Source of the DNA: Bolinopsis microptera | Lineage: Eukaryota > Ctenophora > Tentaculata > Lobata > Bolinopsidae | Assembly: GCF_026151205.1 (NCBI RefSeq) | Contig: NC_087074.1 | Coordinates: 17,892,712-17,956,711, forward strand | Reading direction: 5' to 3' | DNA length: 64,000 nucleotides | Part shown: positions 1 to 64,000 of the stretch, piece by piece | Layout: every line of letters begins with the position of its first letter | How positions within the stretch are numbered: the stretch's first letter is position 1 | Notes under the pieces: generated by a model | What the model saw: only the letters and a program-made list of their open reading frames with translations | The model's database searches: none | Told to the model about the DNA's origin: nothing | Translations under genes and position numbers: made by a program

Positions 1-3000
1 AGTCAGATAAAACGATGTCTTCCACCATATCACCAGTGTCAACAAATTCTACATCTTCATCAACTTTCGTCTCTTCTTCTACCTTTTTCGTTTTCTTCTT
101 CTTCTTTTTCTTTTTATCTGGTGATGATGCATCTGAAGAAGCACCGTTGACATTTTCTATTCCATTTGCGTCAGGAGTGTCTTTCGTCTTTGACTTCTTG
201 GATTTCTTCGCTTTCTTCTTAGGAGATGGTGCAGTTTCCCCTTCCTCATCGCTATCATCAGCTCCAACATCCTCCTCCTCACCTTCCCCTCCTTCCTCCT
301 CCTCCTCTTCAGCACTCTTATTAGCAGCCGCCACAGCTCGGTGTATCTTGAGCCAGGTGTTGAAGTATTTAGTAAGAGCAGAGTCAGGAAGCTGACTCTC
401 CCACTCTGTCACCTTGTCCAGGTCCTTGGGGGTGAAGGAGACGCTCGACCTTTTCTCGGTGAGGTCACGTGATACCGCTTCCATCTTTTCTAGTAGTTGT
501 TTCATCTGGGGACGAATGGCAATTAGTTTTCCTTATCGATTCAAAGAATTTTTAATTTCTTTTGATGAAGATTAAACTGAAGTTCAGAAAATTATGAACT
601 ACATTTATATAATATCCAAGGTTCAATTTCAAACAGAAAATCTTTACAAAACAAATTGAACGGAGCTTTTTTAATCGAGACAAACCTGAGAAGTGTACTT
701 AGGATTGTTGCACTTTTTGTTAAACTTCCTCAACCACACAATTACAGGGAAAGAGACCTCAGGGAAACTGATGCTTTGTGACAGTTGAGAAATGTAGTTC
801 AGGAGGAGTTCATATGTCAGGTCGAATACACCGTCCTGGAACGCTTTTGTCTTCTTGTAACCTTTCGTTACCTGTGAGGATTCCGGTTATATACCACGTG
901 TTTTTATAGTTTATACCCTTCAATTTACTTTAATTAATTCAATATAGTTTTTACGTTTTGAAATAAAAACAGAGAATACGCAAAAATCCAACTGTAAAGC
1001 TCAAAAGAAAACTTACCCTGAGAACACAAGTAAGATCAACAGGTTTGGTAGCAGGTGCTTTGTGGACCACAGCACAGAAGTCCAGAGTTCCTAACAAGGA
1101 ATGTACCAGAGGAATGTGCTTGTTAGTGGCAGCAGCAAGATGGAGCATGAGGCGGATGGAGTGGAGATGGAGGGGGTAGAAACACGGCGAACTGTGCAAC
1201 TTTATCACACCCATCATTACCTGATTGATGACGTCATAAAACAAGAAAAATCGACGAAACTTATTATTTACAAACTAATTATCTTCAATCTTCGACCTTT
1301 TGTTGCATAGAAAGATCTCGTAACCTACAATTCCATTCAGATATCACAACAATTTCATTATAAATTCGCCACAATTTAACAACAATAATGTCACTACAAT
1401 TTTACCTGTATGAGAGGGAAGATGAGGGGTTGAAGACAAGCATCACAATCCGATAACACAGATACCCACACGTGCAAACAGTTGACATACTGCCAGTTAT
1501 AGACGGACTCAACATCCTTCTTGTTAACGATCACTGAGCGTAATGTCACTGCTAACTGTCGGATGTAAAGGAACCCCTGAAGAGTAGGGGTCAGTCTGGG
1601 ACTGCAAGTTAAAGTCAATGAGTTAAAGTCAATTCGTAATTAAATAATTAGTAATAATAAGGATGTCACCAACGTAGCGAAAAGACGATGTAGTCCCATA
1701 AAATAATTGCTACAAAACGTCTATAGTCTATAACTTAAACGGAAAAATCTGACTCTAAATTTCAAGTATTTATTGAAATTGCAATTTGAAGCTTTTAGTG
1801 GTTAACTTTTTGTAGCATTGCTGTAACACCCTACTTACCGTGGTGTAAGTGCTGTAACACCCTACTTACCGTGGTGTAAGTGATGGAACACCCTACTAAC
1901 CGTGGTGTAAGTGATGGAACACCCTACTTACCGTGGTTTAGTGCTGTAACACCCTACTTACCGTGGTGTAAGTGATGTAACATCCTACATACCGTGGTGT
2001 AAGTGATGTAACACCCTACTAACTGTGTAAGTGATGGAACACCCTACTTACCGTGGTGTAAGTGATGGAAGGGTTTATTTTAAACATTTCCACAAGACTG
2101 TTCCTCATCAACATAATGTTGTCACGTGACTTTGGGTTCATCATCTTACTGCACTTGGTGTACTCAACGTACATTTTCTTCAACATGTCCTCCAGGAATG
2201 TGGGTATCTTCTTCACTACCGCCTGTTTGGTAATATGTTGATTAATATTTGGGGAGAAGCTAGATTTAGTATGAAGATATATTTGGGGAGACAAACAATT
2301 TAGTGGGATGGAGCAAAGTAGTTTTGTACACAACAGCAACAAATCATCAAACCTGAAGACAAGTGAAAGCTACAACTCGAGAAAGCTCAGATTTGCTACC
2401 CCACACAGCTACATGACTCTTAACAAACTTCTTGATAAGTCTAGAGAAAGCAGCATAGTATGGTAACATGGCTTTACAGTGCCTCATCACTGCACACAGT
2501 ACATCGTTACTCGTCAGCAGACCTATCGAATAGGGAGTGAATTAAAAGAAGGAAAAATTCGACAAGATAATCAAACCTATTTTAACAAAATTTCCATGAG
2601 ACAAGCTTCGATTTTATAATGACACCATTAAGAGGAAAGCTCCGGGTATATAGTTATTCAGAAAACGTACCTAATAACTCAGTCAGACTGGTAAGATAAG
2701 ACTTGAGAGACATTTTAAGTCTGTTCCACTTAGTGGAACTAGTAGGATTCTCTCCCAGGTGACTCTTCAGCAATTCACTGGTATACTTCAGACACATCAT
2801 GATGACTTTATTAACAATATCTGGGTCTACTATGGTGTACTTCATCTCGGATTCTGGTTCATCTCCTTTAGCGGTAACGACAGCAGCTTGGAATGCCCTG
2901 ACAAGCTGCTTCCACGTTGGCAAACTGTTCTTCTCCAGGTTTAACTTCCACTTTTTGAGGAGCTGTGGCGTAACATTAATTGCAGTGACAGTGGGTTCTG

Positions 3001-3565
3001 CAAGTTCAGGTTCTTCTTGACCAGCCATTTCTGTATTAGGATCTGGATCATTATCTGACATGTTCTCTGCCTCATCTTCTAAATCTTCTGGAATCTCATC
3101 CTCTGAATCTACTCCGGATAAACCGTCCGAATCTTCAGCCCCACTGAAATCAAGAAGGTATGGATCGTTCTCTTGTAGAAATTTGAAGAAATCGGAATCC
3201 TTTTCTCCGAGTCGTGACAGCCCTTTCTTAACATTGCCCGACTTGGGAATGTTTTCATCCTTGCTAGCGGTCTCTGGAGTCTGATCAGACTCCTCTGCAG
3301 TCTGTCCTGATGAGTCAGCCGTCTCGTCAGATACAGCAGGTTTAGATTTCTTTGACTTTTTCTTGGCCTTAGGCTTAGGCTTGACGGGTGACTCTGACCC
3401 TTGGATGGCATCGTTGTCATCGTCGAACGAAGCCATAAAATCGTCAGCATTCAGTTCACCTAAATCATCTCCTTTGACAGCTACCACTTTCTTCTTCTTT
3501 GTTTTAGGGGCTTCGAGCTTCTTTCTTTTCCTTTTCTTCTTCTCAGGCTGATTTTGCACCATCAT
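1..3565 (-). CDS. NOC2L: Nucleolar complex protein 2 homolog (NOC2L), 3' end cut by window
   Basis: Ribosome-biogenesis factor of the Noc2 family, which acts in the nucleolus and nucleoplasm on pre-60S particles and in vertebrates also binds histones. Seven exons read on the minus strand: 3565-2671, 2522-2353, 2222-2052, 1576-1406, 1220-1017, 871-686, and 505 to beyond position 1. All junctions are GT-AG and the phases agree. The N-terminus is Lys/Arg-rich with acidic Ser/Asp/Glu stretches. It is followed by a family-typical block (DSDFFKFLQENDPYLLDF). The helical Noc2 core carries GFLYIRQLAVTLR, ESVYNWQYVNCLHVW and LQPLIFPLIQ, all close to the known family. The last visible exon ends in acidic and poly-Lys low complexity. 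The start is the first of two ATGs at 3565. An AG acceptor-like site lies two bases upstream, so a 5' leader exon or spliced leader is possible. The C-terminus runs off the window. Confidence 0.93.
1815..2070 (-). repeat. 31-bp minisatellite built from a NOC2L exon end and its 5' splice site
   Basis: Eight units with a 31-bp period (28-31 bp apart) start at about 1831, 1862, 1893, 1924, 1954, 1985, 2016 and 2044. The last is the genuine end of the NOC2L exon 2222-2052. Read on the minus strand, each unit contains the exon tail (codons for SITYTT) followed by GTAAGTAGGG, so most units are copies of the real splice donor. Some carry GTTAG or GTATG instead of GTAAG. The array lies inside the following intron. 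Confidence 0.9.
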
Positions 3566-16635: not shown

Positions 16636-18515
16636 TTATAATGAGAAACGAGAATTAAACTCAAAAGAGTGAGTCTTTAGATGATCTTTGAGATCCGATT
16701 TCTGAACTGTTTCATATGAACAATCTGGACATTTAAAAGGTTTTTCTCCCGAGTGAGTACGCATATGTACTTTGAGGTGTGATTTCTGAGCTGTCGCAAA
16801 CAAACAATCTGGACATTTAAATGGTTTCTCTCCAGAGTGAATATTCAGAGTATGTTCTTTTAGGTGTGATTTCCGAGCTGCTGCATACAAACAATCTGGA
16901 CATTTAAATGGCTTCTCTCCCGAGTGAGTAATCAAATGTACTTTAAGATCTGATTTCCGAACTGTTGCATATGAGCAATCTGGACATTCAAAAGGCTTCT
17001 CTCTGTGAGTACTCATATGTACTTTAAGATTTGCTTTCCGAGCTGCCGCGAACGAACAATCTGGACATTTAAATGGTTTCTCCCCGGAGTGAATCTTCAA
17101 ATGATTTTGAAAAGCTGATTTCTGAACTGCTGCATAAGAACAATCTGGACATTTAAATGGTTTCTCTCCAGAGTGAGTCTTTAGCTGATCTTTAAAGTGT
17201 GATTTCCGAGCTGTTGCATACGAACAATCTGGACATTTAAATGGCTTCTCTCCAGAGTGATTACTCATATGCACATCAAGTTGAGATTTTTGAACTGCTG
17301 CGTACGAGCAATCTGGACATTTAAATGGCTTTTCTCCTGAGTGATTCCTCATATAATGCACATCAAGATATGATTTCCGAACTGCTGCATACGAACAATC
17401 TGGACATTTAAATGGTTTATCTCCTGAGTGAATCTTCAAATGATCTTGTAGGTTTGATTTCCGAGCTGTTGCATACAAACAATCTGGACATTTAAATGGC
17501 TTCTCTCCCGAGTGATTACTCATATAATGCACATTGAGTTGTGATTTCCGAACTGCTGCATACAAACAATCTGGACATTTAAATGGTTTATCTCCGGAGT
17601 GAGTCTTCGTATGTATTTTAAGATCTGAGTTCCGAGCTGCTGCATATGAACAATCTGGACATTTAAATGGTTTCTCGCCGGAGTGAATCTTCAAATGATT
17701 TTGAAAAGTTGATTTCTGAACTGCTGCATATGAACAATCTGGACATTTAAATGGCTTCTCTCCCAAGTGATAACTCATATGCACATCAAGTTGTGATTTC
17801 CGACCTGCTGCATACAAACAATCTGGACATTTAAATGGTTTATCTCCAGAGTGAGTCTTCGTATGTACTTTAAGATCTGATTTCCGAGCTGCTGCATATA
17901 TGAACAATCTGGACATTTAAATGGCTTCTTTTCTGAGTAAGTTGTTACGTTATATCGAAGAGTAGCTCCGATATTTTCTTGAGGATTGCAAGTTTTCAGA
18001 GGAATGCAAATAATGTCCAATCTATTCCTGATTCCAGATCCTAGACTACTAATATTATCACTATCATTTTGAAATTCATCACATTTTGGTCTTTTTCGTT
18101 TGCCAGAGTTTTCTACATGATCTCTGATATGTTTAATGAAACTATCCTCCTCCAGAAACTTTTCCCCACAAACTGAGCAGAGGAAGCCACCGGACTTTCC
18201 ATTAATTTTTGTCTGCTCCGTTTTTACTTCTGATTTCAAAAAGTCACATTTATTTTTAACACAACAACCATCTTGTTCTTTAACGTGACTATTGTCATGA
18301 AAAGACCCTCCAGTAAAGTCACTGAACAATCTTTGTTCCTCATCCTGTTCTTGTACTTGTAGGTCAGGCTTATAATGACGTTCCCTGATATGTTCAATAA
18401 AATACTTCTCATAGAAAAGTTGTTCACCACATGCTGGACACAGAAAACCTCCATTTTCGCTTCTCGAATCCTCTTCTTCAGTCTTTACTTCGCTTTTAAT
18501 GTGAGGACATGACAT
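16636..18515 (-). CDS. Poly-C2H2 zinc-finger protein with a two-base frameshift
   Basis: Probable DNA-binding nuclear protein. From the ATG at 18515, the N-terminal part has two atypical C2H2 fingers (GGFLCPACGEQLFYEKYFIE and GGFLCSVCGEKFLEEDSFIK) separated by acidic linkers and IKSEVKTE-type sumoylation-like motifs. Then comes a tandem array of 15 near-identical fingers with canonical linkers (SGEKPFKCPDCSYAA). One finger has lost a zinc ligand (KDQLKTH, His to Gln). In the first finger of the array the reading frame breaks. The codons for CSY are followed by an extra AT (around 17896-17901) compared with every other finger, so the long array lies in a different frame from the start codon. 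The ATG directly follows an AG acceptor-like site (TTTTCAG), so a 5' exon or leader is likely. The break may be a real allele, a sequencing indel, or early decay. Confidence 0.85.
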
Positions 18516-19436: not shown

Positions 19437-22400
19437 CTAGGAACCTTGCCGGATTTCAATCTCAAATCCGGCAAGCCGGATTTTGCCGGACCGGAACCGG
19501 TGGTTTCAGAGTGAAATATAAGGCAGCCGGATCTTGCCGGATTTTGCCGGATCTTGCCGGAAAATTTAAATTCATATTCTTATTTTTATACTTTTGTCAT
19601 TTAATTATCATAATATTAATTATAAAACGTGATAAAGATAAATACTAGAGCTACTGTTCGTAATAAGGTTCAGTTTTCCTCTAATTTAATACTGCCAAGG
19701 TTGCGATTATAGCCCGGGGCTAGCCCAGGGAGGTGGCCGAAAATATTTTTTCGATTTTTTCTTAGTCCGCACCTACCCCTCGATACATAATTCTGGACTC
19801 GAGGTTTCCCCCGGTAATTCGATCTCGGAAGGCAGGCCTCCCCTTAGCAACATGAGCTCGGAAGCGGGAGCTCTCGATACAGGAGGTACGTCTCAAGAAC
19901 GACTCGGACCGAAAATTTTCTAAGTCAAAAATTTTTCTAAGTTTTTCTGAAAACCACTTTTTTCCACGATTCAGGTTACCTTGTTCATTATTAGCCGAAA
20001 ATATTTTTTCGGTTTTTCGAAGTCCGCACCTACCCCTCGATACACAATTCTGGACTCGAGGTTTCCCCCGGTAATGTGATCTGATCTCGGAAGGCAGGCC
20101 TCCCCTTTTATTTGCAACACGAGCTCGGAAGCAGGAGCTCCCGATACAGGAGGTACGACTCGGATCGAAAATTTTCTAAGTCAAAATTTTTTCTAAGTTT
20201 TTCCGAAAACCAATTTTTTCCACGATTCAGGCTACCCTGTTCATTATTAGCCGAAAATATTTTTTCGGTTTTTTCGAAGTCCGCACCTACCCCTCGATAC
20301 ACAATTCTGGACGAGAGGTTTCCCCCGGTAATGTGATCTCGGAAGGCAGGCCTCCCCTTTGCAACACGAGCTCGGAAGCGGGAGCTCCCGATACAGGAGG
20401 TACGACTCGGACCGAAAATTTTCTAAGTCAAAATTTTTTCTAAGTTTTTCCGAAAACCACTTTTTTCCACAATTCAGGCTACCCTGTTCATTATTAGCCG
20501 AAAATATTTTCTCGGTTTTTCGAAGTCCGCACCTATCCCTCGATACACAATTCTGGACGAGAGGTTTCCCCCGGTAATGTGATCTCGGAAGGCAGGCCTC
20601 CCCTTTGCAACACGAGCTAGGAAGCGGGAGCTCCCGATACAGGAGGTACGTCTCGAGAACGACTCGGACCGAAATTTTCTAAGTCAAAATCTTTTCTAAG
20701 TTTTTCTGAAAACCACTTTTTTCCACGATTCGGCTACCTTGTTCATTATTAGCCGAAAATATTTTTTCGGTTTTTCGAAGTCCGCACCTATCCCTCGATA
20801 CACAATTCTGGACTCGAGGTTTTCCCCGGTAATGTGATCTCGGAAGGCAGGCCTCCCCTTTGCAACACGAGCTCGGAAGCGGGAGCTCCCGATACAGGAG
20901 GTACGACTCGGACCGAAAATTTTCTAAGTCAAAATTTTTTCTAAGTTTTTCCGAAAACCACTTTTTTCCACGATTCAGGCTACCCTGTTCATTATTAGCC
21001 GAAAATATTTTTTCGGTTTTTCGAAGTCCGCACCTATCCCTCGATACACAATTCTGGACGAGAGGTTTCCCCCGGTAATGTGATCTCGGAAGGCAGGCCT
21101 CCCCTTTGCAACACGAGCTAGGAAGCGGGAGCTCCCGATACAGGAGGTACGTCTCGAGAACGACTCGGACCGAAATTTTCTAAGTCAAAATCTTTTCTAA
21201 GTTTTTCTGAAAACCACTTTTTTCCACGATTCGGCTACCTTGTTCATTATTAGCCGAAAATATTTTTTCGGTTTTTCGAAGTCCGCACCTATCCCTCGAT
21301 ACACAATTCTGGACTCGAGGTTTTCCCCGGTAATGTGATCTCGGAAGGCAGGCCTCCCCTTTGCAACACGAGCTCGGAAGCGGGAGCTCCCGATACAGGA
21401 GGTACGACTCGGACCGAAAATTTTCTAAGTCAAAATTTTTTCTAAGTTTTTCCGAAAACCACTTTTTTCCACGATTCAGGCTACCCTGTTCATTATTAGC
21501 CGAAAATATTTTTTCGGTTTTTTCGAAGTCCGCACCTACCCCTCGATACACAATTCTGGACGAGAGGTTTCCCCCGGTAATGTGATCTGATCTCGGAAGG
21601 CAGGCCTCCCCTTTTATTTGCAACACGAGCTCGGAAGCGGGAGTTCCCGATACAGGAGGTACGACTCGGATCGAAAATTTTCTAAGTCAAAATTTTTTCT
21701 AAGTTTTTCCGAAAACCAATTTTTTCCACGATTCAGGCTACCCTGTTCATTATTAGCCGAAAATATTTTTTCGGTTTTTTCGAAGTCCGCACCTACCCCT
21801 CGATACACAATTCTGGACGAGAGGTTTCCCCCGGTAATGTGATCTCGGAAGGCAGGCCTCCCCTTTGCAACACGAGCTCGGAAGCGGGAGCTCCCGATAC
21901 AGGAGGTACGACTCGGACCGAAAATTTTCTAAGTCAAAATTTTTTCTAAGTTTTTCCGAAAACCACTTTTTTCCACGATTCAGGCTACCCTGTTCATTAT
22001 TAGCCGAAAATATTTTTTCGGTTTTTCGAAGTCCGCACCTATCCCTCGATACACAATTCTGGACGAGAGGTTTCCCCCGGTAATGTGATCTCGGAAGGCA
22101 GGCCTCCCCTTTGCAACACGAGCTAGGAAGCGGGAGCTCCCGATACAGGAGGTACGTCTCGAGAACGACTCGGACCGAAATTTTCTAAGTCAAAATCTTT
22201 TCTAAGTTTTTCTGAAAACCAATTTTTTCCACGATTCGGCTACCTTGTTCATTATTAGCCGAAAATATTTTTTCGGTTTTTCGAAGTCCGCACCTATCCC
22301 TCGATACACAATTCTGGACTCGAGGTTTTCCCCGGTAATGTGATCTCGGAAGGCAGGCCTCCCCTTTGCAACACGAGCTCGGTTTTTTCGAAGTCCGATA

Positions 22401-22707
22401 CACAATTCTGGACTCGAGGTTTCCCCCGGTTATGTGATCTCGGAAGGCAGGCCTCCCCTTTGCAACACGAGCTCGGAAGCGGGAGCTCCCGATACAGGAG
22501 GTACGAGTACGACTCGGACCCGCGAAAATTTTCTAAGTCAAAATTTTTTCGAAAATTACTTTTTTTGATTTTTTTTTCGGTAAAAAAAACTGAAATCCGG
22601 CAAAAATCCGGCAAATTTTTTCCAGCCGGAGCCGGAGCCGGAGCCGGATTTTGAAGCCGGATATCCGGCCGGATCCGGATTCAGCCGGATTTCCGGTCAG
22701 TTCCTAG
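19437..22707. mobile_element. 3.27-kb element with inverted ends, 6-bp duplication and internal satellite
   Basis: The outer ends are inverted: CTAGGAAC at 19437 and GTTCCTAG ending at 22707. A matching TGTGGA lies on both sides (19431-19436 and 22708-22713), consistent with a 6-bp target duplication. Next to both ends are dense CCGGAT/ATCCGG words. The interior is almost entirely a tandem array (separate entry). I see no transposase. Short ORFs on both strands are by-products of the repeated unit. Confidence 0.7.
19730..22570. repeat. Satellite array with 1506-bp higher-order repeat
   Basis: About 12 units of roughly 250 bp, marked by the word GGCAGGCCTCCCC. Anchor spacing from 20093 is 252, 246, 255, 246, 255 and 252 bp, and the whole pattern then recurs: 20093/21599, 20345/21851, 20591/22097 and 20846/22352 are each exactly 1506 bp apart. 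Diagnostic variants travel with the period, for example the CTGATCTCGG insertion plus CTTTTATTTG at 20080-20112 and again at 21586-21618. The last unit is disrupted by a deletion near 22380. Confidence 0.9.
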
Positions 22708-54166: not shown

Positions 54167-57100
54167 ATGGTGTCAGTATTGGTTTGGATGAGCTTTCTAA
54201 TATTCATCCCAGGTAAATTATGAACTTAATCTCAATTTAAAAAGTATAACCTATTAAATAGATTATTTGGTAGGTAATATTAGTTTGGATAGTTTTACTC
54301 TTAAATTTTGAAACTCCTAAAATAGAACCATTAACTTCATAAATGAGATTTCAAGCTCTTCCTACAATCATCTTTACTGTCTCCAAAAACAGATTATATT
54401 GTATGGCTAACCAAATTATGGATTGAATTAACTGAACAATGTGTGCTGCTTATTAGTTACAGCTGCTTATCAAGTAATGCTATAGTATATATTATATTGT
54501 ATTAAACTTACATATATTTACTATTCTGTTAACCATTTCAGGTTCTCATTTAGACAACAATCTCACTTGTGCAAAACCAAACCTGTTTGATGAATTCAGA
54601 GATAAATTTGGCAAAAAAAATGAAACAGTGAGTGATGCTTTTTAGTTAGGGAACTGTGAAAATTTCTTGGAACTAATTTGCCACAAGCATTTTGAGCAGC
54701 AATGTGTTGTTCATAGTCCCAGGAACCACGCCAAATAGTTGTAACAGTAGATTTGATGTGCACAAGTGTTCTTGGTGCACCTGGAGAAAATATGCTCAAG
54801 CTAGTTGTGCACATCAGATCTACTTTTACCACTCTTTGGCGTGGTTCCTGGGTCTGTATGTAGAATACATTCCTGCACAGAAATGCTTGTGGCAAAGTAA
54901 GTTCTGCTTCTTTAAAAATAATTTCAATTTACTTATGAGAATATTATATCCAGGAATATTTGTATTGAAATCCATAAATATAAAGTGAGTAATCAAAGTG
55001 TACCCTTCCTTTCTTCTATTTTCAGCTTAAAGTGAATGGTGGCTTCTATAATAAATGTCTCCACATGTATGAAAAGGACACGAAATTAAAAGTTGATGAA
55101 AACACCATAAGAGCGATCTCCGAAAAAGTGAACAAGCTTGCTGGAGGAATAATCGAGCAAATTGCTGAAGATGAAGGGATGGATCACTCAGATTATCTTC
55201 CCGTAAATATTGTAGTCTGTTTTTTTCATAGGACCCGATATCAATAGAAACTGATACCGACTAACCTGAGCTTCGACCTTAGTTTTAAAAATTATTATTT
55301 AAATATCAAATTTATTAGTTTAAAGATCAGTCTTCTGATCCGTTCGTTGCACTAATAAAATTATTTATTAGTTTATCAGTCGTTTTATTTTAGGCATTTA
55401 TGGAAACTTGCTTTGTGAAATCACATCTCGAAGATTTCGCAATTAAACTCAACAAGTTCTTTAAAAAAGAATACAAAATGAAACTGACTTGTCCATTGGG
55501 TTTACTCTGGGATATCATCTGCACCTTTCAAACCTGCTTGGAGTCTGATTGTGTTGTAGATGATGAAGTGTGTACGGACGCTAACGATACAAATGCTTGC
55601 TCTAAAGTGAACCTAAAGCTCTTTTGTATGGTGGGTTTTTGATAAAGAACTCATTTTTTGGCCTTATATTATACCTTTTGACAGAGGTAAAGAATAGGCA
55701 AGGCTAGGGTCGGTTTTAACTTTTGAGTTGTGGGTAAGTACCAATGTCTTCCCAAAAGCTAAGGGAATTGAATCCTCTTGAATTCCTTACGTTTTCCATG
55801 GAAATATAGGATCTGCAGTTAATTTGACTGCATAAGTGTGTTTTTTTGACTGTCCAACTAAGCAAACAACAATTTATTTTAAGATTAATTTAAATTTTTT
55901 TTAAAAGTTTATTAGCGGCATGATACATCTCACAAATTCATAATTATAACTTTATAACAAAACTTAGTAATTCTTTCTGACTTCAGGTGGATTTCGGAAG
56001 TTTTGTTGATAGTTGCGTCGATGACGAAAACCAATTCAAGATACCTATGAAACAAGCATTAAGTGCTGTATTAAGGAACAGCAGCTGCTCAAACTTCAAC
56101 TACATTTACCAGGGAATGCCTTCTTTACAAGGTGCAGGATGTTGAAGATTATTGTTGAAGATTATATGAATTGTACAGGGTGTCCCAAAAAAGGCTACCA
56201 AGTGATTATTGCTAATTACTCAAGAACAGCCATTTATTATTTACAGTGTATCTAGGATATGACCTCCGGATGCTGTGAAAATGTTGTTCATTCTAGGAGG
56301 GCAACCTCATGAGGTTTTTCATGGTACCAAAGTAAAGATCATGTTATATTGAGCTTGCTGCTTGGATAAAGACCTCTTTTGTTACCATCGCTACCATGTG
56401 TTATCATGTGTAATACAGTGTTACTAAGTGACGAATGAACATTGAACAGGCTCCCAATTGAGTTTTGCCCTGAAATTTGTAAGACAAATTTTGGAGCACA
56501 GGACTTACCAAGTGGTTACTGTTAAGTGTTAGGTTATCATTGAAGCGAGTTATTGCCAAATTAACTTGGTTGCCTTTTTGTGGGATACCAGAGGCAGCTC
56601 TTTGGAGCTGGCTGGTGGTTGTTTCGGGCGTCCAATCGACGGACTCAGGGGGCCGGAGGCTATTCGCTGATGACTGCATACAATAACACAGCAGAAAGCT
56701 AATCAATTAATTTAACGAAAGGCAGGATTTCAAATATTACATCGAAGCTAGAACTTACCATGCATAATACTAGCACATGCCCACATGTTTTACACATTAC
56801 ACACAGGGCCTGTGCAATTTGTAAAACAAATTGTAACAGGCAACAGCAAACTATAACGGAAACTTATAAAATAAGTGAAATAGGACACCACACGTGTACA
56901 ATCTTAGCCGCGCAGTATGATAGCAGATAGTTCAAATCGCATGGTCGCCCAAGGATCATGGATGACCTGATCGTATAAATTTCCAGTACGTTGATGCAAT
57001 GATGTACGTTGTAGCATTTGCAATTAACTGTGTGTTGATGCTGTGCGGCTTAGGCGTCCAAACGAGGATTGAATGCCTCACAACATGTTTTCACAAAGAT

Positions 57101-60100
57101 CATGTGTGCGCTTACATTCAACCGTTTGAGTTAAATAACAAGCTTTATATCACGATATTTCCGAATACTATTTCTTTTTTCAAGCACTAGATAATAATTT
57201 TAGGGCGTCCACGGACGCCTGGACGCCCTCAACAGCCGCCTTCGTGGGATACCCTCTGGAAATGACATGGTTCATTAACGCGTTGCCAATCACATTATGT
57301 TATATAACTATAACGAGATTACCTAAAGAGTTAAAATGATTCATGAATGCATCCAATCTTTCTAGATTAAACTGTACGTTCAAAATGTTATAATTGGAAA
57401 CTGTTTTTTTCAGTTATTGAGAAAAGTGTTATCGCTGCTGATTGTGGAGAAGTTATTGTTACCATGAAATGCTTTAGGAATGGCGAACATTTGAAGCAGT
57501 GGGTATTTCAAATTCATGTCAAACAAACTCTTCCTCTTGTAAATCCTTGCTAGTACATTCAAACTCTTCCTCTTGTAAATCCTTGCTAGTACCTAATAAC
57601 ATTACACGATGTTTTTCAGAGCGACGTGGTCTTTAAAGGATGTGAAGGATGCTGATGTTAGTAACGGAGCATTACATATTAGTCGAAAAGATATTCTGTT
57701 AAATCAAAGAAATTTTTCCTGCTATGATGGTCCTGCTAAAGTAGCAGATATAACCTCACACCATCTCCTGAAACTGTGTAACTCGGGTAACTATTTACTT
57801 TACGTCGTCAATTTGTGATGTTAACTATATGATCTCTGTGTAAAAGTGTTAGAATTATCGTGACTATGATTTAGTGTAATATTTTCTGTGATTCATTCAT
57901 GTGTATTTAGTTTTTGTATCAGATAGAGGAAATGAAGTATCAAATGACATTGACATTGTTATTGAACTCGATGATGACAATGGAAACTATATAACAGCGC
58001 CACCAGAGCCTACAAGTACAACCCCGCACACGAGTTCAACTCCTCAACCTATAGATAAAAACCGGAATAAATGGAAGGATTTTTACAAGGATGATAAAAT
58101 ATGGCTGTTCCGTAAGTACTCCAGTTTGGATGGGATTAATGCCTTCGATAACAAGAACAGGCTTCAGACAAACATTGATAAGCTAAGTGTAGCGATGGTG
58201 TCTGTGATGGGACGATTAACGCCTATATGTGGAGAATTGTGGAATAAGGAGGCCGCTGCAGTGTTTTGTAGGGAGGCCGGTGCCCAGCTTAGTCAAAACT
58301 GGACTGTGTTACATGTGAGTATGTTGTACACATACATAAAATACCTGCCAGTACTGTAACATACCGAGAAACCATTGACATAATATCACGTTAGCCATTT
58401 AGGGTATGGGCTTTGGAAAAGCTTACAATCGCAAAAATAATAAATTTCTGATAAAACTATTCACGATTTATCGGAATTCATAAACAAAATTACTCGATCA
58501 TTATGCAAAGTGAGCACGGAATAAATAACATTATTATCCCTCTAGCTCTTGTCAATGAAGCATGTACAACATGTAGTTACCTAGTTACCTAGTTACCATG
58601 TAACCTAGTTACCTAGAAACTTAGTTACCTAGTAACCTAGTAACCCAGTAACCTAGTAACCCAGGTACCTAGTAACCCAGTTACCAAGTAACCCAGTTAC
58701 ATAGTTACCAAGTAACCTAGTTACCTAGTTACCAAGTAACCTAGTTACCTAGTTAGTAGTTACCTAGTTGCCTAGTTACCTAGTTACCAAGTAACCTGGA
58801 CAATTTATAATCAATAACCCAGGTTGGTTCCTTGCACAAAACCAAAAATGAAAGACACAACGAAAGTGACTTCTACAAACATTACTTGCGAAATATAACG
58901 TGTAAAGGAGACGAGGCTAAAATCATTTGGTGTGAGCACGATGGGTGGTATCATCACAGTAATTGCACTCACGACGCTGTGGTAACTTGTAAGTACCTGC
59001 ACTCACCACGCTGTGGTAACTTGTAAGTACCTGCACTCACGACGCTGTGGTAACTTGTAAGTACCTGCACTCACGACGCTGTGGTTACTTGTAAGTACCT
59101 GCACTCACGACGCTGTGGTTACTTGTAAGTACCTGCACTCACGACGCTGTGGTTACTTGTAAGTACCTGCACTCACGACGCTGTGGTAACTTGTAAGTAC
59201 CTGCACTCACGACGCTGTGGTTACTTGTAAGTACCTGCACTCACGACGCTGTGGTAACTTGTAAGTACCTGCACTCACGACGCTGTGGTTACTTGTAAGT
59301 ACCTGCACTCACGACGCTGTGGTATCATCACAGTAATTGCACTCACGACGCTGTGGTTACTTGTAAGTACCTGCACTCACGACGCTGTGGTATCATCACA
59401 GTAATTGCACTCACGACGCTGTGGTTACTTGTAAGTACCTGCACTCACGACGCTGTGGTTACTTGTAAGTACCTGCACTCACGACGCTGTGGTTACTTGT
59501 AAGTACATGCACTCACGACGTTGTGGTCACTTGTAAGTACCTGCACTCACGACGCTGTGGTTACTTGTAAGTACCTGCACTCACGACGCTGTGGTTACTT
59601 GTAAGTACCTGCACTCACGACGCTGTGGTCACTTGTAAGTACCTGCACTCACGACGCTGTGGTTACTTGTAAGTACCTGCACTCACGACGCTGTGGTAAC
59701 TTGTAAGTACCTGCACTCACGACGCTGTGGTTACTTGTAAGTACCTGCACTCACGACGCTGTGGTAACTTGTAAGTACCTGCACTCACGACGCTGTGGTT
59801 ACTTGTAAGTACCTGCACTCACGACGCTGTGGTTACTTGTAAGTACCTGCACTCACGACGCTGTGGTCACTTGTAAGTACCTGCACTCACGACGCTGTGG
59901 TTACTTGTAAGTACCTGCACTCACGACGCTGTGGTAACTTGTAAGTACCTGCACTCACGACGCTGTGGTTACTTGTAAGTACCTGCACTCACGACGCTGT
60001 GGTAACTTGTAAGTACCTGCACTCACGACGCTGTGGTTACTTGTAAGTACCTGCACTCACGACGCTGTGGTTACTTTTAAGTACTTGTAAGTACCCTGTG

Positions 60101-63100
60101 TGAAGAGAGGAAGCTTCCCGGCCAATATCTCACCTTTAAAAATGGTGGAATTAAGGATTATATCAATAATGAAAAGAAGTTTACTCATCAACATTTGTTG
60201 TTTCATTGATAAATTTATTAGTTCTTTATAAATCAGCTTTATTATTTCCTTTTCAGGCTCTCAAGTAAAGGAAGGTGAATATTTTGATAAATTGTAGAAT
60301 AATCACTAAAGACATGCCCCCTTCCCCCCCCCCCCTCCCCCCGTAATCCTGTAATTTACTATATTTTTAAAGCTTATTCAAAACACACATTATTGCCCTA
60401 TTGGGATAGTTAATTCTTCCCTACGCCTATGGGTTTATTGTTTATTGACCCCCCACCCATTTAATCCCATTTCGCCAGATCCAGGTACCCAGTGGTGGCA
60501 CTTGTTACTGTTGACTGTGGGAGGAGTATGTTTCCTTGTTCTTTTGACTTATACATTCTTCTGCACCTTTGGAAAAGGATATCTCAAAGAGCTACTTGAA
60601 GCTTGGAACCGTTTCGTAAACGGAGGGGGAGGGTCAGTGCCTACTGAATCAGAGTGAGTTATAGGAGAAATGTGATCCTTTAAAAAATAATCTAAATCTT
60701 TTCAAACAATACATAATTATACATAATTGAATGCTTCTAAATAAACCCAGATATAAAAGGAGAAAACAAATATAGCCCAAATTTCCAGTATCCCAGTATA
60801 TCGAAACCCAAATTATGTGTTGAAAGAGGAGTAACCAAAACACGGTAGTGTGCAGTATGAAATACCACACCTGCAATAACATTGGGCCCTAGCAAAAAAA
60901 CTAATTAATCAATAAGTCAAAACATATATAATATTGTATATTTTATAGAAAATATATAACTCTCAAGGCTCCTTCTCCGAGCTAACGACTCTAAAGTTCC
61001 TGATTACGTGAACTTTGTTCGGCTCTGCTGTCCTTTTATTGAGTAGCTGGTGAATTTCACTGGCTTGAATCGCTCACTTGTACTTGTGTCGTTTCCAACT
61101 CGTTTACAGCTCAAGATTTTCGGTTTTTCGTTGAGATGATCCAACAGAATACCTGATACCTTAGCATGCAAGTTCTCCTCAGTCTCCGGAAGCCCACAGA
61201 TTATCAGACTTTTACTTCGATCTTCTTCGAGGGCAACCCTTTTCACTGCAGCTTGGATCTTCTTCGGTGCAAAGGCGTTTTTCACGTGTTATTGTACAGA
61301 GACGAATAGGTTTTAATCTCTTTCTGAGCTGCACTTTTCACAGTTCCAATGTCATCATCCTTCTTCATAGGTAACTTCTCCTGCAAATCACTAATTTTTG
61401 CCATGTCTTCTTCTTGCTTGGAGAGTAACTTCTCTTGTTTTAGTTCTATGATTTTAGTCGTATCTACTATTTTTCTTTCCTGAACTTGCTGTTGTCGGCG
61501 GATTGTAAGTGTAACACTGGACCACAATAATTGACCGCACACTGTCTCTAACCACACTGAAAACCTTTCTCTGGCTCTCTAGGCACACTTCTCAGGTTCA
61601 GTTTATCAAATTGCACATCGTTGTGTTGAGCATTGATTTTACTTCCAATCTCCTTGAAAATACTGACAGTCGCCAGGTGTATCTGATTCACATATTCCGT
61701 AAGGAACTCGCCATTATCAACCATAGTATCATCTAGTACCATATCCAAATGTTCATTCTGTAGCGGAAAAGGCATCGTACACGATGTACAGAAAAAGTAC
61801 AAACAATGTATTCCGATCTACAAAGCCAGAGAGAGATAATTCACTGATATACACTATACTATACTAGTATACTATACACTATAATATACACTATATATAC
61901 TAGTATACTCTACACTATAATATACACTATACTAGTATACACTACACTATACACTATACACTATACACTTTTGGCCCAATTGTGCCAAATCACCTCAACA
62001 TGCCCAAAACCCAGATGTTGGTTGCAACACCCAGGGGGATTGTTTATGTAAGTTACTTTATAACCTTGTTACTATTTACAGGACCCCGGGAGACATGAGC
62101 ACAATAGTCAGCCTTCAAACTGGATCAGGCACGGGTAGTGTGAATCCCATCTCTCTTAGTGGTGGTTTTAGCAGTTGGCCCTTCCCTTCCGGCAGTGTCC
62201 AGAGAACTGCTGAACCTATTGGGCCTGTTTATCCGGAGCCTAGACAAGAGGATAATCTCAAACGTCTCAATAGTAGAGAATGTGATGTAATTATAAGCCA
62301 AGCTACTGTGAACATCAAATTCTAGGACCATTTTATTCGCATCGCGTAATTTGTCAGTATTAAAAAGTGTCGCTAATTTTGGTCTGTTTTTGTCGTGCAT
62401 TTATCTTCGATGGGGTAAGTAAATGCCACGATTGAAACAGCAACGGGAGTTCTTTGGTGTAGGAATTTGGTGTTTGACAATGTTTAATTTAAATATGTTA
62501 ATCAGATTAGGCCTATAAATGAATGAGTTTATAATTCATCTACTGATTGTAAAGTTGTAATATGTATTAACATTGTTGCACGTTGTTGATAGTGCTGTGA
62601 TTCTAGTTGTAGTTCGTTTCTGACCGGCCACTCTTCAGGAGTGGGTATTGGGTGGGTATAAGGTTGAAGGAAAAACACTTGTTTGCAAGTCGTATAAAAA
62701 CATCACTGGTGAAACTAAAGATAACATGATGACTGAGTATTTCTTCCTGTCCAATGTTAAACACTCAAACATAGTGGAGTGTGTTAATGAACCGAGGGAG
62801 ATCTCTTTTAACAACGAGAAGAAACAGTACGTTAAGTAAACTCCTTATTATATTGCATAATGCATATAATATAATACAGGGTGGGCCGCCAAAAGTCAGT
62901 ACCCATACGTTGGCCTTAATAGCTCCGCCGTGTTTTATATTTGAGAGCTGTTGCTTTGCAGATGGCATACTGTACTTACTGGTTCGAGGATTCCGTCGTC
63001 AAAATTTGAAAATTCGAATATTTTAGACCACGCCCATTCAATATTAAAACACCTATATTGTTTTCTCTGAACATGCTGAACGCCTAATTTTTTCAGAGAC

Positions 63101-63905
63101 GGTAAATTATCAAATGTTGCATATGATCTGAAAATATGACGCAAAACGGATTAGAAATGACGAAGTTATCAAGCATTTTCTGTATCTCGTTAACAAAATT
63201 GACTGGGTGATTATGTGACACCGTGACACGACACTTTAATTGGGCACCCTTAACAATTCCCATAATGTTTAACGGGGTAGTTAACGGGGGCACCTTATCA
63301 CGTGATTAGGTAAACCAATCACCTGATCACACGTAATGAATAAACTCGTTATGCTTCATATCTCGGTCATCTGAGAAGCTACAGTTCTAATTCTTTCAGG
63401 ACAAACGTAAATCGAATGGCCAAACACAATTCAATAACATTTAGCTTGATCCGACTATCCAAACTATCAAATAAATGTGAAAATGAACCTCCATTTCAAA
63501 AAAATGAACGCGAATATTTTTCGAGTTGACAAATTCCTCGAACCAGTGGTGGTACTAAGCCATACCAGAAAGAAGTATTTAAATTGGGCACTCAGTGACT
63601 GAGCTATAAAGGCCAACGTATGGGTACTGACTTTTGGCCCACCCTGTATAAAATAATTTTATAATTTTCTTTGACGATAAAAATGTCGTAAAGCTCATAT
63701 TTTTATATAATGATTTGTTTCGTTATTTACATTGGAAAAAACTCAAATAGTGAAAAATTCGATAAAAAGCTGTTATAGACGCAATTTTGAGGGGAATCAT
63801 GTTTAATTTTCAAAACAAGAAAATAGTGTATCGAATTTACTGAATTCGTGAAAACGAGCTACTCATTGATTTATGTTTGAAATGTTAATACCAGAAGTGT
63901 AGGAA

Positions 63906-63939
<34 letters not shown>

Positions 63940-64000
63940 GGAGGACGACCCTGGTTCATACCACTTTTCAATTTCAGATCATTTTTCATGGAACGCTTGG
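54167..64000 (+). CDS. Receptor with SRCR ectodomain, one TM helix and kinase-like domain (3' cut by window)
   Basis: Fourteen exons: 54167-54212, 54542-54627, 55026-55202, 55394-55630, 55987-56131, 57414-57502, 57620-57786, 57911-58314, 58823-58988, 60257-60274 (18 nt), 60479-60653, 62082-62286, 62639-62835, and 63978 onward. A signal peptide (MVSVLVWMSFLIFIP) is followed by an unrecognised Cys-containing ectodomain with N-glycosylation sites, and a Ser/Thr/Pro linker. Next is one SRCR domain (about residues 412-506: GRLTPICGELWNKEAAAVFC to SNCTHDAVVTC), a TM helix (about 516-540) and a basic juxtamembrane part. A protein-kinase N-lobe follows, with LVCKSYK (candidate catalytic Lys), MMTEYFFL (alpha-C Glu), VKHSNIVE and hinge-like SFFMERL. 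The Gly-rich loop is degenerate (GGYKVEG). All phases fit except between 57502 and 57620, where the open frame is offset. Likely a tyrosine-kinase-type or pseudokinase receptor; its catalytic loop lies outside the window. Confidence 0.82.
54655..54925. mobile_element. Inverted-repeat element in a receptor intron
   Basis: Arms of about 95 bp are roughly 80% complementary. The best block is CCCAGGAACCACGCCAAA against TTTGGCGTGGTTCCTGGG, plus TTTGCCACAAGCATTT near the outer ends. It contains no gene. The open frames on both strands are by-products. Confidence 0.65.
56132..57413. other. Receptor intron without recognised gene
   Basis: It contains a solitary mariner-like end (TACAGGGTGTCCC at 56175) and unidentified sequence. 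Short ORFs at 56404-56706 and 56999-57190 resemble no family I know. Confidence 0.5.
58561..58800 (+). repeat. 8-bp minisatellite ending just before a splice acceptor
   Basis: AGTTACCT/AGTAACCC words repeat about 28 times. Several read TAACCCAG, like the true acceptor TAACCCAG at 58815-58822, which lies about 20 bp beyond the array. Confidence 0.85.
58973..60090 (+). repeat. 34-bp minisatellite built from the SRCR exon end and its 5' splice site
   Basis: About 32 units with 34-bp period contain CACTCACGACGCTGTGGTAA, then CTTGTAAGTACCTG. The first unit is the genuine end of exon 58823-58988 plus its donor GTAAGT. Units near 59323 and 59391 also carry TATCATCACAGTAATTG, which is further upstream exon sequence. 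This shows that exon DNA seeded the array. Units differ mainly at GGTAACTT / GGTTACTT / GGTCACTT. Confidence 0.93.
61004..61802 (-). pseudogene. Non-LTR retrotransposon ORF1-like remnant
   Basis: Three minus-strand reading pieces in different frames (61802-61548, 61557-61282, 61285-61004) join into an ORF1-like layout. A Gln/Lys/Glu coiled coil is followed by EEDRSKSLIICGLPETEENL and later SCKRVGN and FKPVKFTS. These match the RNA-binding-type ORF1 domain of L1/CR1-like elements. Frame breaks mark it as dead. It lies antisense in a receptor intron. Confidence 0.7.
61845..61970. repeat. TA-rich simple repeat ACTATACACTATA
   Basis: Short satellite of ACTATA / CTAGTATA words in the receptor intron before exon 62082. 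Confidence 0.85.
62877..63646. mobile_element. Mariner-type MITE, 770 bp, in the kinase intron
   Basis: Long inverted ends (about 50 bp) begin CAGGGTGGGCCGCCAAAAGT and end ACTTTTGGCCCACCCTG, flanked by TA. There is no transposase. CAGGGTG-type termini and TA duplication fit Tc1/mariner derivatives. It lies between the N-lobe exon and the hinge exon of the receptor. Confidence 0.85.
63908..63936. repeat. G homopolymer, about 29 bases
   Basis: Uninterrupted G-run in the last intron, just before the hinge exon. Similar runs lie at about 36302, 41877 (C), 47388, 47663 and 54066 (C). Such runs are prone to length error in assemblies. Confidence 0.9.

Follow-up and report, generated by a model that had tools for sequence, protein, structure and literature searches.

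Why would a gene carry the end of one of its own exons, together with the 5' splice site (donor) that follows it, in a long tandem array, and how would its transcript still be spliced? The question is raised by a predicted receptor gene with an SRCR domain in the ctenophore Bolinopsis microptera, located in a stretch of 64,000 nucleotides that we refer to as the window (RefSeq assembly GCF_026151205.1, contig NC_087074.1, positions 17,892,712 to 17,956,711 of the forward strand). The 34-bp array that begins at the end of exon 9 of this gene is probably a minisatellite of the type known as mirages, one that the gene tolerates since splicing normally proceeds from the first donor; leakage to later ones may yield a soluble SRCR ectodomain. 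Functional amplification for the SRCR receptor is not the best reading of the locus. Such arrays recur in other genes of this genome, and they are most likely a tolerated feature and not a designed switch.

The 34-bp array and its host gene

Tandem Repeats Finder (TRF) placed the array at 58964-60084 with a period of 34, 33 copies and 94% matches, and splitting the array at every TGCACTCA likewise gave 33 units. The amplification of an SRCR exon end with its donor, described in an initial annotation of this DNA, therefore held, and its estimate of about 32 copies became 33. Unit 1 contains the end of exon 9 itself (58988). Each unit consists of 25 exonic bases followed by 9 intronic bases, GTAAGTACC; the unit had correctly been described as exon end plus GTAAGT donor, although with 23 exonic bases. 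Units 1-32 are each exactly 34 bp, whereas unit 33 is out of register, its in-register donor being mutated to TTAAGT with the next GTAAGT at 60087. The count of 31 GTAAGT in 33 units bears out the statement that nearly every unit offers an equivalent 5' splice site.

The two donorless units, 11 and 13, are hybrids. Neither departs from the 34-bp length; in both, the final ~15 bases consist of TATCATCACAGTAAT from further upstream in the exon, which stands in place of the donor. These hybrids suggest that exon and array have exchanged sequence, as had been proposed; the upstream exon sequence, however, replaces the donor and is not an addition to the unit. Nearly all variation among the 31 other units (of 33) falls at position 21 (9 A, 19 T and 3 C), with rarer changes found once each at positions 10, 14 and 26 and twice at position 34. 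The sequence TGCACTCACGACGCTGTGGTTACTTGTAAGTACC is present in 17 units, and 8 more differ from it solely in having A at position 21, where it has T. The order of variants also contains a 7-unit higher-order repeat (Table 1). When units were shuffled, the variant changes within this repeat were equalled in 0 of 5000 shuffles and its length in 68 of 5000, and the repeat is a sign of block duplication. A two-unit query of the genome, in a search that skips very common words, returned 15 matches, every one of them at the SRCR locus.

The host gene was modeled as 11 exons on the plus strand that form a single frame of 569 codons. Exon borders were picked by eye at AG and GT with consistent phases, and are predictions not drawn from transcripts. 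The encoded protein matched the SRCR profile PF00530 (E = 2.7e-9) with 37.7 bits against a Pfam cut-off of 26.1. Exons 1-8 (54167..58314) encode an apparent signal peptide, the ectodomain and the first half of the SRCR domain. By eye, the N-terminus is hydrophobic, as is LLLLTVGGVCFLVLLTY in exon 11, and these stretches look like a signal peptide and a transmembrane segment, respectively. For Mnemiopsis, 55 SRCR genes have been reported, 12 of which had altered expression on bacterial re-exposure (PMC11797021).

Two further observations concern the surroundings of exon 9 and of the gene. An 8-bp array (unit TAGTTACC, ~28 copies, 58574-58797) ends about 25 bp 5' of the exon 9 acceptor, and this acceptor, TAACCCAG/GT (the slash marks the splice border), is similar to array units; exon 9 thus has arrays on both sides. 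Protein-kinase-like exons are found 3' of the receptor gene (62624-64000 and L008; Pkinase, E = 1.9e-19 with the pieces joined), with catalytic motifs that are unusual by eye. They may represent the next gene or the cytoplasmic part of the SRCR receptor. We did not retain the kinase as a receptor part; its first exon is, by eye, out of phase with the possible splice from exon 11, which leaves the linkage of receptor and kinase unproven.

Table 1. Coordinates and characteristics of the SRCR locus, the Noc2 array and arrays adjoining Pfam-matched exons elsewhere in the genome.
Feature	Position	Strand	Unit	Remarks
Exons 1-8	54167-54212, 54542-54627, 55026-55202, 55394-55630, 55987-56131, 57414-57498, 57620-57786, 57911-58314	+		Gene model
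Exon 9	58823..58988	+		SRCR second half; final 25 bases = array unit 1 (gene model, TRF, unit split)
34-bp array	58964..60092	+	34 bp	33 units, 31 GTAAGT (TRF, unit split); units 11, 13 and 33 altered
Donor 1, GTAAGT	58989..58994	+		Sole donor yielding transmembrane protein in silico
First read-through stop, TAA	59024..59026	+		Made by unit 2 donor; terminates donor 3-31 products at 516 amino acids
Unit 11, hybrid, donorless	59304..59337	+		Bears upstream exon sequence
Unit 13, second hybrid, donorless	59372..59405	+		Bears upstream exon sequence
7-unit higher-order repeat	59542..60017	+		Units 18-24 identical in order to units 25-31
Exon 10	60257..60274	+		18 nt; gives two bases of last SRCR cysteine codon
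Exon 11	60479..60657	+		Hydrophobic, apparently transmembrane stretch; short tail; TGA stop at 60655-60657
Noc2 exon-end array	1822-2070	-	31 bp, TTCCATCACTTACACCACG/GTAAGTAGGGTG	~8 copies; first unit = Noc2 exon end
L028, homeodomain	C10:4506851-4507551		35 bp	E = 2.7e-13; above Pfam cut-off
L023, WD40-like exon			29 bp	E = 1.7e-5; below Pfam cut-off
L013, dynein-region exon			50 bp	E = 1.7e-5; below Pfam cut-off
L011, Sushi gene (C1:428576)			54 bp	E = 0.0028 alone (below cut-off), 5.9e-9 joined with next exon (above)
L009, kinase, CDK-like by eye			41 bp	E = 6.6e-13, two exons joined; above cut-off

Predicted products of the donors

We joined each of the 31 donors in silico to exon 10 (60257) and translated the products. 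Donor 1 gave the full transmembrane protein of 569 amino acids (aa), and no other donor did. Donor 2 gave a frameshifted protein of 561 aa without the transmembrane segment, and donors 3-31 (29 donors) gave one identical secreted form of 516 aa ending in VVTCKYLHSPRCGNL. The transmembrane segment was lost with 30 of the 31 donors, in agreement with the proposal that the array could produce a soluble ectodomain. Two related statements of the initial annotation also proved correct, namely that 34 is not a multiple of three and that read-through meets a stop near 59024. Since T/GTAAGT reads TGT, read-through retains the last SRCR cysteine, and a soluble form would therefore be chemically sensible. 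Because donors 3-31 share one product, a copy number above 3 cannot alter the alternative protein, and the suggestion that copy number tunes receptor output was left unsupported.

The array could instead act as a regulatory rheostat, in which leakage to the many donors sets the amount of membrane receptor relative to degraded mRNA or soluble SRCR ectodomain, a ratio that would differ between individuals with array length. The near-universal loss of the transmembrane segment and the complete SRCR domain of the secreted form favor such a mechanism, and a human variable number tandem repeat (VNTR) in CBS has the same anatomy (PMC2630376) and is tied to reduced enzyme activity in the title of another paper. 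However, copies beyond 3 leave the protein unchanged, unit lengths are heedless of reading frame, and like arrays are present in Noc2, homeobox, dynein-like and WD40-like genes (see below). Likewise, the array-bearing intron contains no AATAAA, ATTAAA or AGTAAA poly(A) signal and a single TATAAA, at 60227. We consider a rheostat unlikely.

Exon-end arrays in other genes

A second exon-end array lies in the same window, on the minus strand, in a Noc2 gene. The Noc2 exon ending at 2052 matched with E = 8.5e-9, and when joined to the next Noc2 exon, which starts near 1576, the match improved to E = 2.1e-34 over profile positions 2-114. Of the three acceptors tried, just one stays in frame from donor 1. 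With this in-frame acceptor, the domain was kept by donor 1 alone of 5 minus-strand GTAAGT, and the other 4 hit one stop. Among the 17 window arrays of at least 2.9 copies, two or more GTAAGT on a single strand were confined to the SRCR and Noc2 arrays, each of which is an exon-end array. The window also contains a satellite-like array of 255 bp (~10 copies, 19736-22476) and an 84-bp periodic array (16666-17942) that could, judging by period and letters only, be tandem zinc-finger coding repeats.

Elsewhere in the genome, we took 20 further GTAAGT arrays from among the matches listed: L009-L015 (n = 7, contig C1), L016-L019 (n = 4) and L021-L029 (n = 9). The last group was chosen by CAG/GTAAGT and is therefore probably enriched for exons. 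The L016 sequence is cut off ahead of its array start, L014 includes masked bases, and L010, in which a long open frame without a Pfam match runs through the array, was scored as having no exon. Five of the 20 arrays adjoin an exon with a Pfam match (Table 1), and five have an open frame to the donor only (L019, L021, L022, L027 and L029). The L009 array begins at the donor and contains no exon bases. In the homeobox gene (L040 and L028, C10:4505900-4510950), an array made of the gene's own exon end splits the homeodomain, with donors spanning 20 units between the two halves; when donors 1-4 were translated, only donor 1 rebuilt the homeodomain (joined E = 4.4e-23). Equivalent arrays in conserved genes such as Noc2 and this homeobox gene leave no support for the idea that the arrangement is special to the receptor. 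Unit lengths of the SRCR, Noc2 and five Pfam-matched arrays ignore the reading frame, only 1 of the 7 being a multiple of 3.

The WD40-like array (L023) was also found on a second, unpolished contig, where 9 units were matched, against 10 on the chromosome; the tenth unit on that contig appears to be altered by an indel. A joined query of eleven flank segments for other alleles turned up a second copy of the WD40-like gene alone, a result with no bearing on polymorphism. Two of the arrays had additional splice-like features. In L029 (C10:17037650-17038900, minus strand), a stretch ending TTTTCAG/AGGGTATCGTA occurs three times 5' of the donor array, possibly as tandem acceptors ahead of one exon. 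In L025 (C8:7267850-7269000), the unit of a 37-bp array contains TTTCAG/GTAAGT, with acceptor and donor adjoining, like a repeated recursive-splice site.

Three spaced GTAAGT were counted 8503 times on the forward and 8968 times on the reverse strand of the genome, compared to 1708/1460 for TGAATG, 3070/3200 for GATAGT, 2209/3210 for TGATAG, 2627/2884 for GTTAAG and 631/715 for GAATTG, all hexamers of the same composition. These are counts of overlapping windows in which long arrays dominate, and they therefore show that donor-bearing repeat sequence is in excess without telling how many genes are involved. Triplets of AAGGTAAGT (212/248) and CAGGTAAGT (156/295) were found as well, and the reversed patterns each gave 0/0. 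For the acceptor, three spaced TTTTCAG gave 540/375 compared to 114/99 for the reversed pattern, most of the places listed being in one C3 array. We also sampled 12 segments of 10 kb at fixed positions, with 117,204 readable bases and 81 arrays of at least 1.9 copies, and found repeated donor-like hexamers in 3 of the 81. L041 has 5 GTAAGT and is the one sampled array with at least 2, with no evident exon in three adjoining frames; L044 has repeated GTAAAT. L049 is an apparent two-copy exon-border duplication (67 bp x2), in which GTGAGT ends an open frame that begins after AG and has no Pfam match.

These counts bear on whether the donor motif itself drives tandem duplication, by short GTAAGT-like matches between exon and donor or by a splicing-linked break, which would make exon-intron borders hotspots. 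The excess of GTAAGT triplets over the five control hexamers (range, 631-3210) and the absence of the reversed patterns are consistent with such a mechanism, as is the AAGT that the L023 and L028 exons bear at the repeat border, just as in the donor. However, counts swayed by long arrays do not translate into an array number, and in the 120-kb sample the only array with at least 2 GTAAGT had no evident exon. We regard a motif-driven origin as quite improbable. Least probable of all is an artefact, whether an expansion in the assembly or an incorrect gene model, owing to a pseudogene or a false exon: the hand-fitted exon borders and the lack of any paralog at E 0.001 or better (few candidates scored) would allow it, but the 11 exons hold one frame throughout, the SRCR match exceeds its Pfam cut-off, and the WD40-like array is present on a second contig.

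A probably tolerated minisatellite and its known counterparts

The explanation we favor is a mirage-type minisatellite that the gene tolerates. As the gene model has it, the unit straddles an exon-intron border, and both the 7-unit repeat and hybrids 11 and 13 suggest homogenization and turnover within the cluster. A tandem duplication over the exon 9/intron 9 border could have been followed by growth to 33 units, either through unequal exchange or through slippage, and the exon would at times have exchanged sequence with the array. The first, exon-proximal donor would be joined to exon 10 and the array would leave as intron, with the added donors as leaky decoys or simply redundant. The Noc2 and homeobox loci lend indirect support to such undisturbed splicing. 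Use of a later donor would mean that the donor's own TAA truncates the protein, giving a secreted SRCR ectodomain (516 aa for donors 3-31, 561 aa for donor 2) or a degraded mRNA. A duplication located 3' of the exon and its donor, both of which stay intact, does not change the original splice, so survival of the array would reflect tolerance, not selection.

Several findings weigh against this explanation. Use of the first donor is our inference from the DNA sequence; all donors are the same hexamer with near-identical flanks, and nothing in the sequence marks donor 1 as stronger. RNA hairpins masking donors were considered and set aside, as folds of two stretches showed no unusual structure (z = 0.22 and 1.29) and no greater stability than shuffles, so that RNA structure offered no reason for choosing the first donor. 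The in-frame Noc2 join falls short by ~6 profile positions. The Noc2 array also has 7 plus-strand GTAAGT with no exon shown on that strand, meaning that the presence of GTAAGT within an array does not suffice to indicate an exon end. Moreover, 10 of the 20 further arrays showed no exon (L010, L012, L014-L018 and L024-L026), and 3 of the 5 Pfam matches (L011 alone, L013 and L023) are under the Pfam curated cut-offs.

A broader proposal is that tandem amplification in the ctenophore genome acts preferentially on exon-donor junctions, such that many, perhaps hundreds of genes carry functional-donor arrays under a first-donor rule, and that leakage in receptors yields secreted ectodomains drifting with array length. 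We offer it tentatively, as a conjecture that more probably fails than holds.

The kind of array described here is already in print for amphioxus and human; we found no earlier report in ctenophores, and a search of the open-access literature (subscription papers being outside it) returned no relevant paper on ctenophore intron minisatellites or splice-site tandem repeats. Amphioxus mirages are described in Adh3 and in the globin genes BflGb6 and BflGb9, with units of 10-72 bp in Adh3, splice signals in many units and concerted evolution inside clusters (PMC3087553). From the Adh3 data and globin reverse transcription PCR, the authors suggested that regular splicing is undisturbed, and the clusters differ in length, at Adh3 even somatically (PMC3087553). 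The SRCR array fits the anatomical definition of a mirage in that its unit lies across an exon-intron border, but it differs in its ctenophore host and in its 33 units and 31 donors compared to the 6 and 3 units of two BflGb6 haplotypes (PMC3087553). The human CBS VNTR, c.1444_1467+7(16_21), has 16-21 units that are always 31 bp (PMC2630376). By our reading of this notation, each unit has 24 exon and 7 intron bases, and 31 and 34 each leave a remainder of 1 on division by 3; the CBS repeat, however, is a single human locus and polymorphic (PMC2630376). One copy of the SRCR locus was found in the assembly. Intron gain by tandem genomic duplication similarly copies a splice signal, but the SRCR array lies in an existing intron and no new intron is evident (PMC4974935, PMC3443670). 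Donor arrays may give rise to new introns and isoforms, and real genes that carry 5' splice sites by the dozen, almost identical to one another, amount to a natural experiment on spliceosome choice among equal donors. Recurrence in conserved ctenophore genes would show that mirages are not a cephalochordate speciality.

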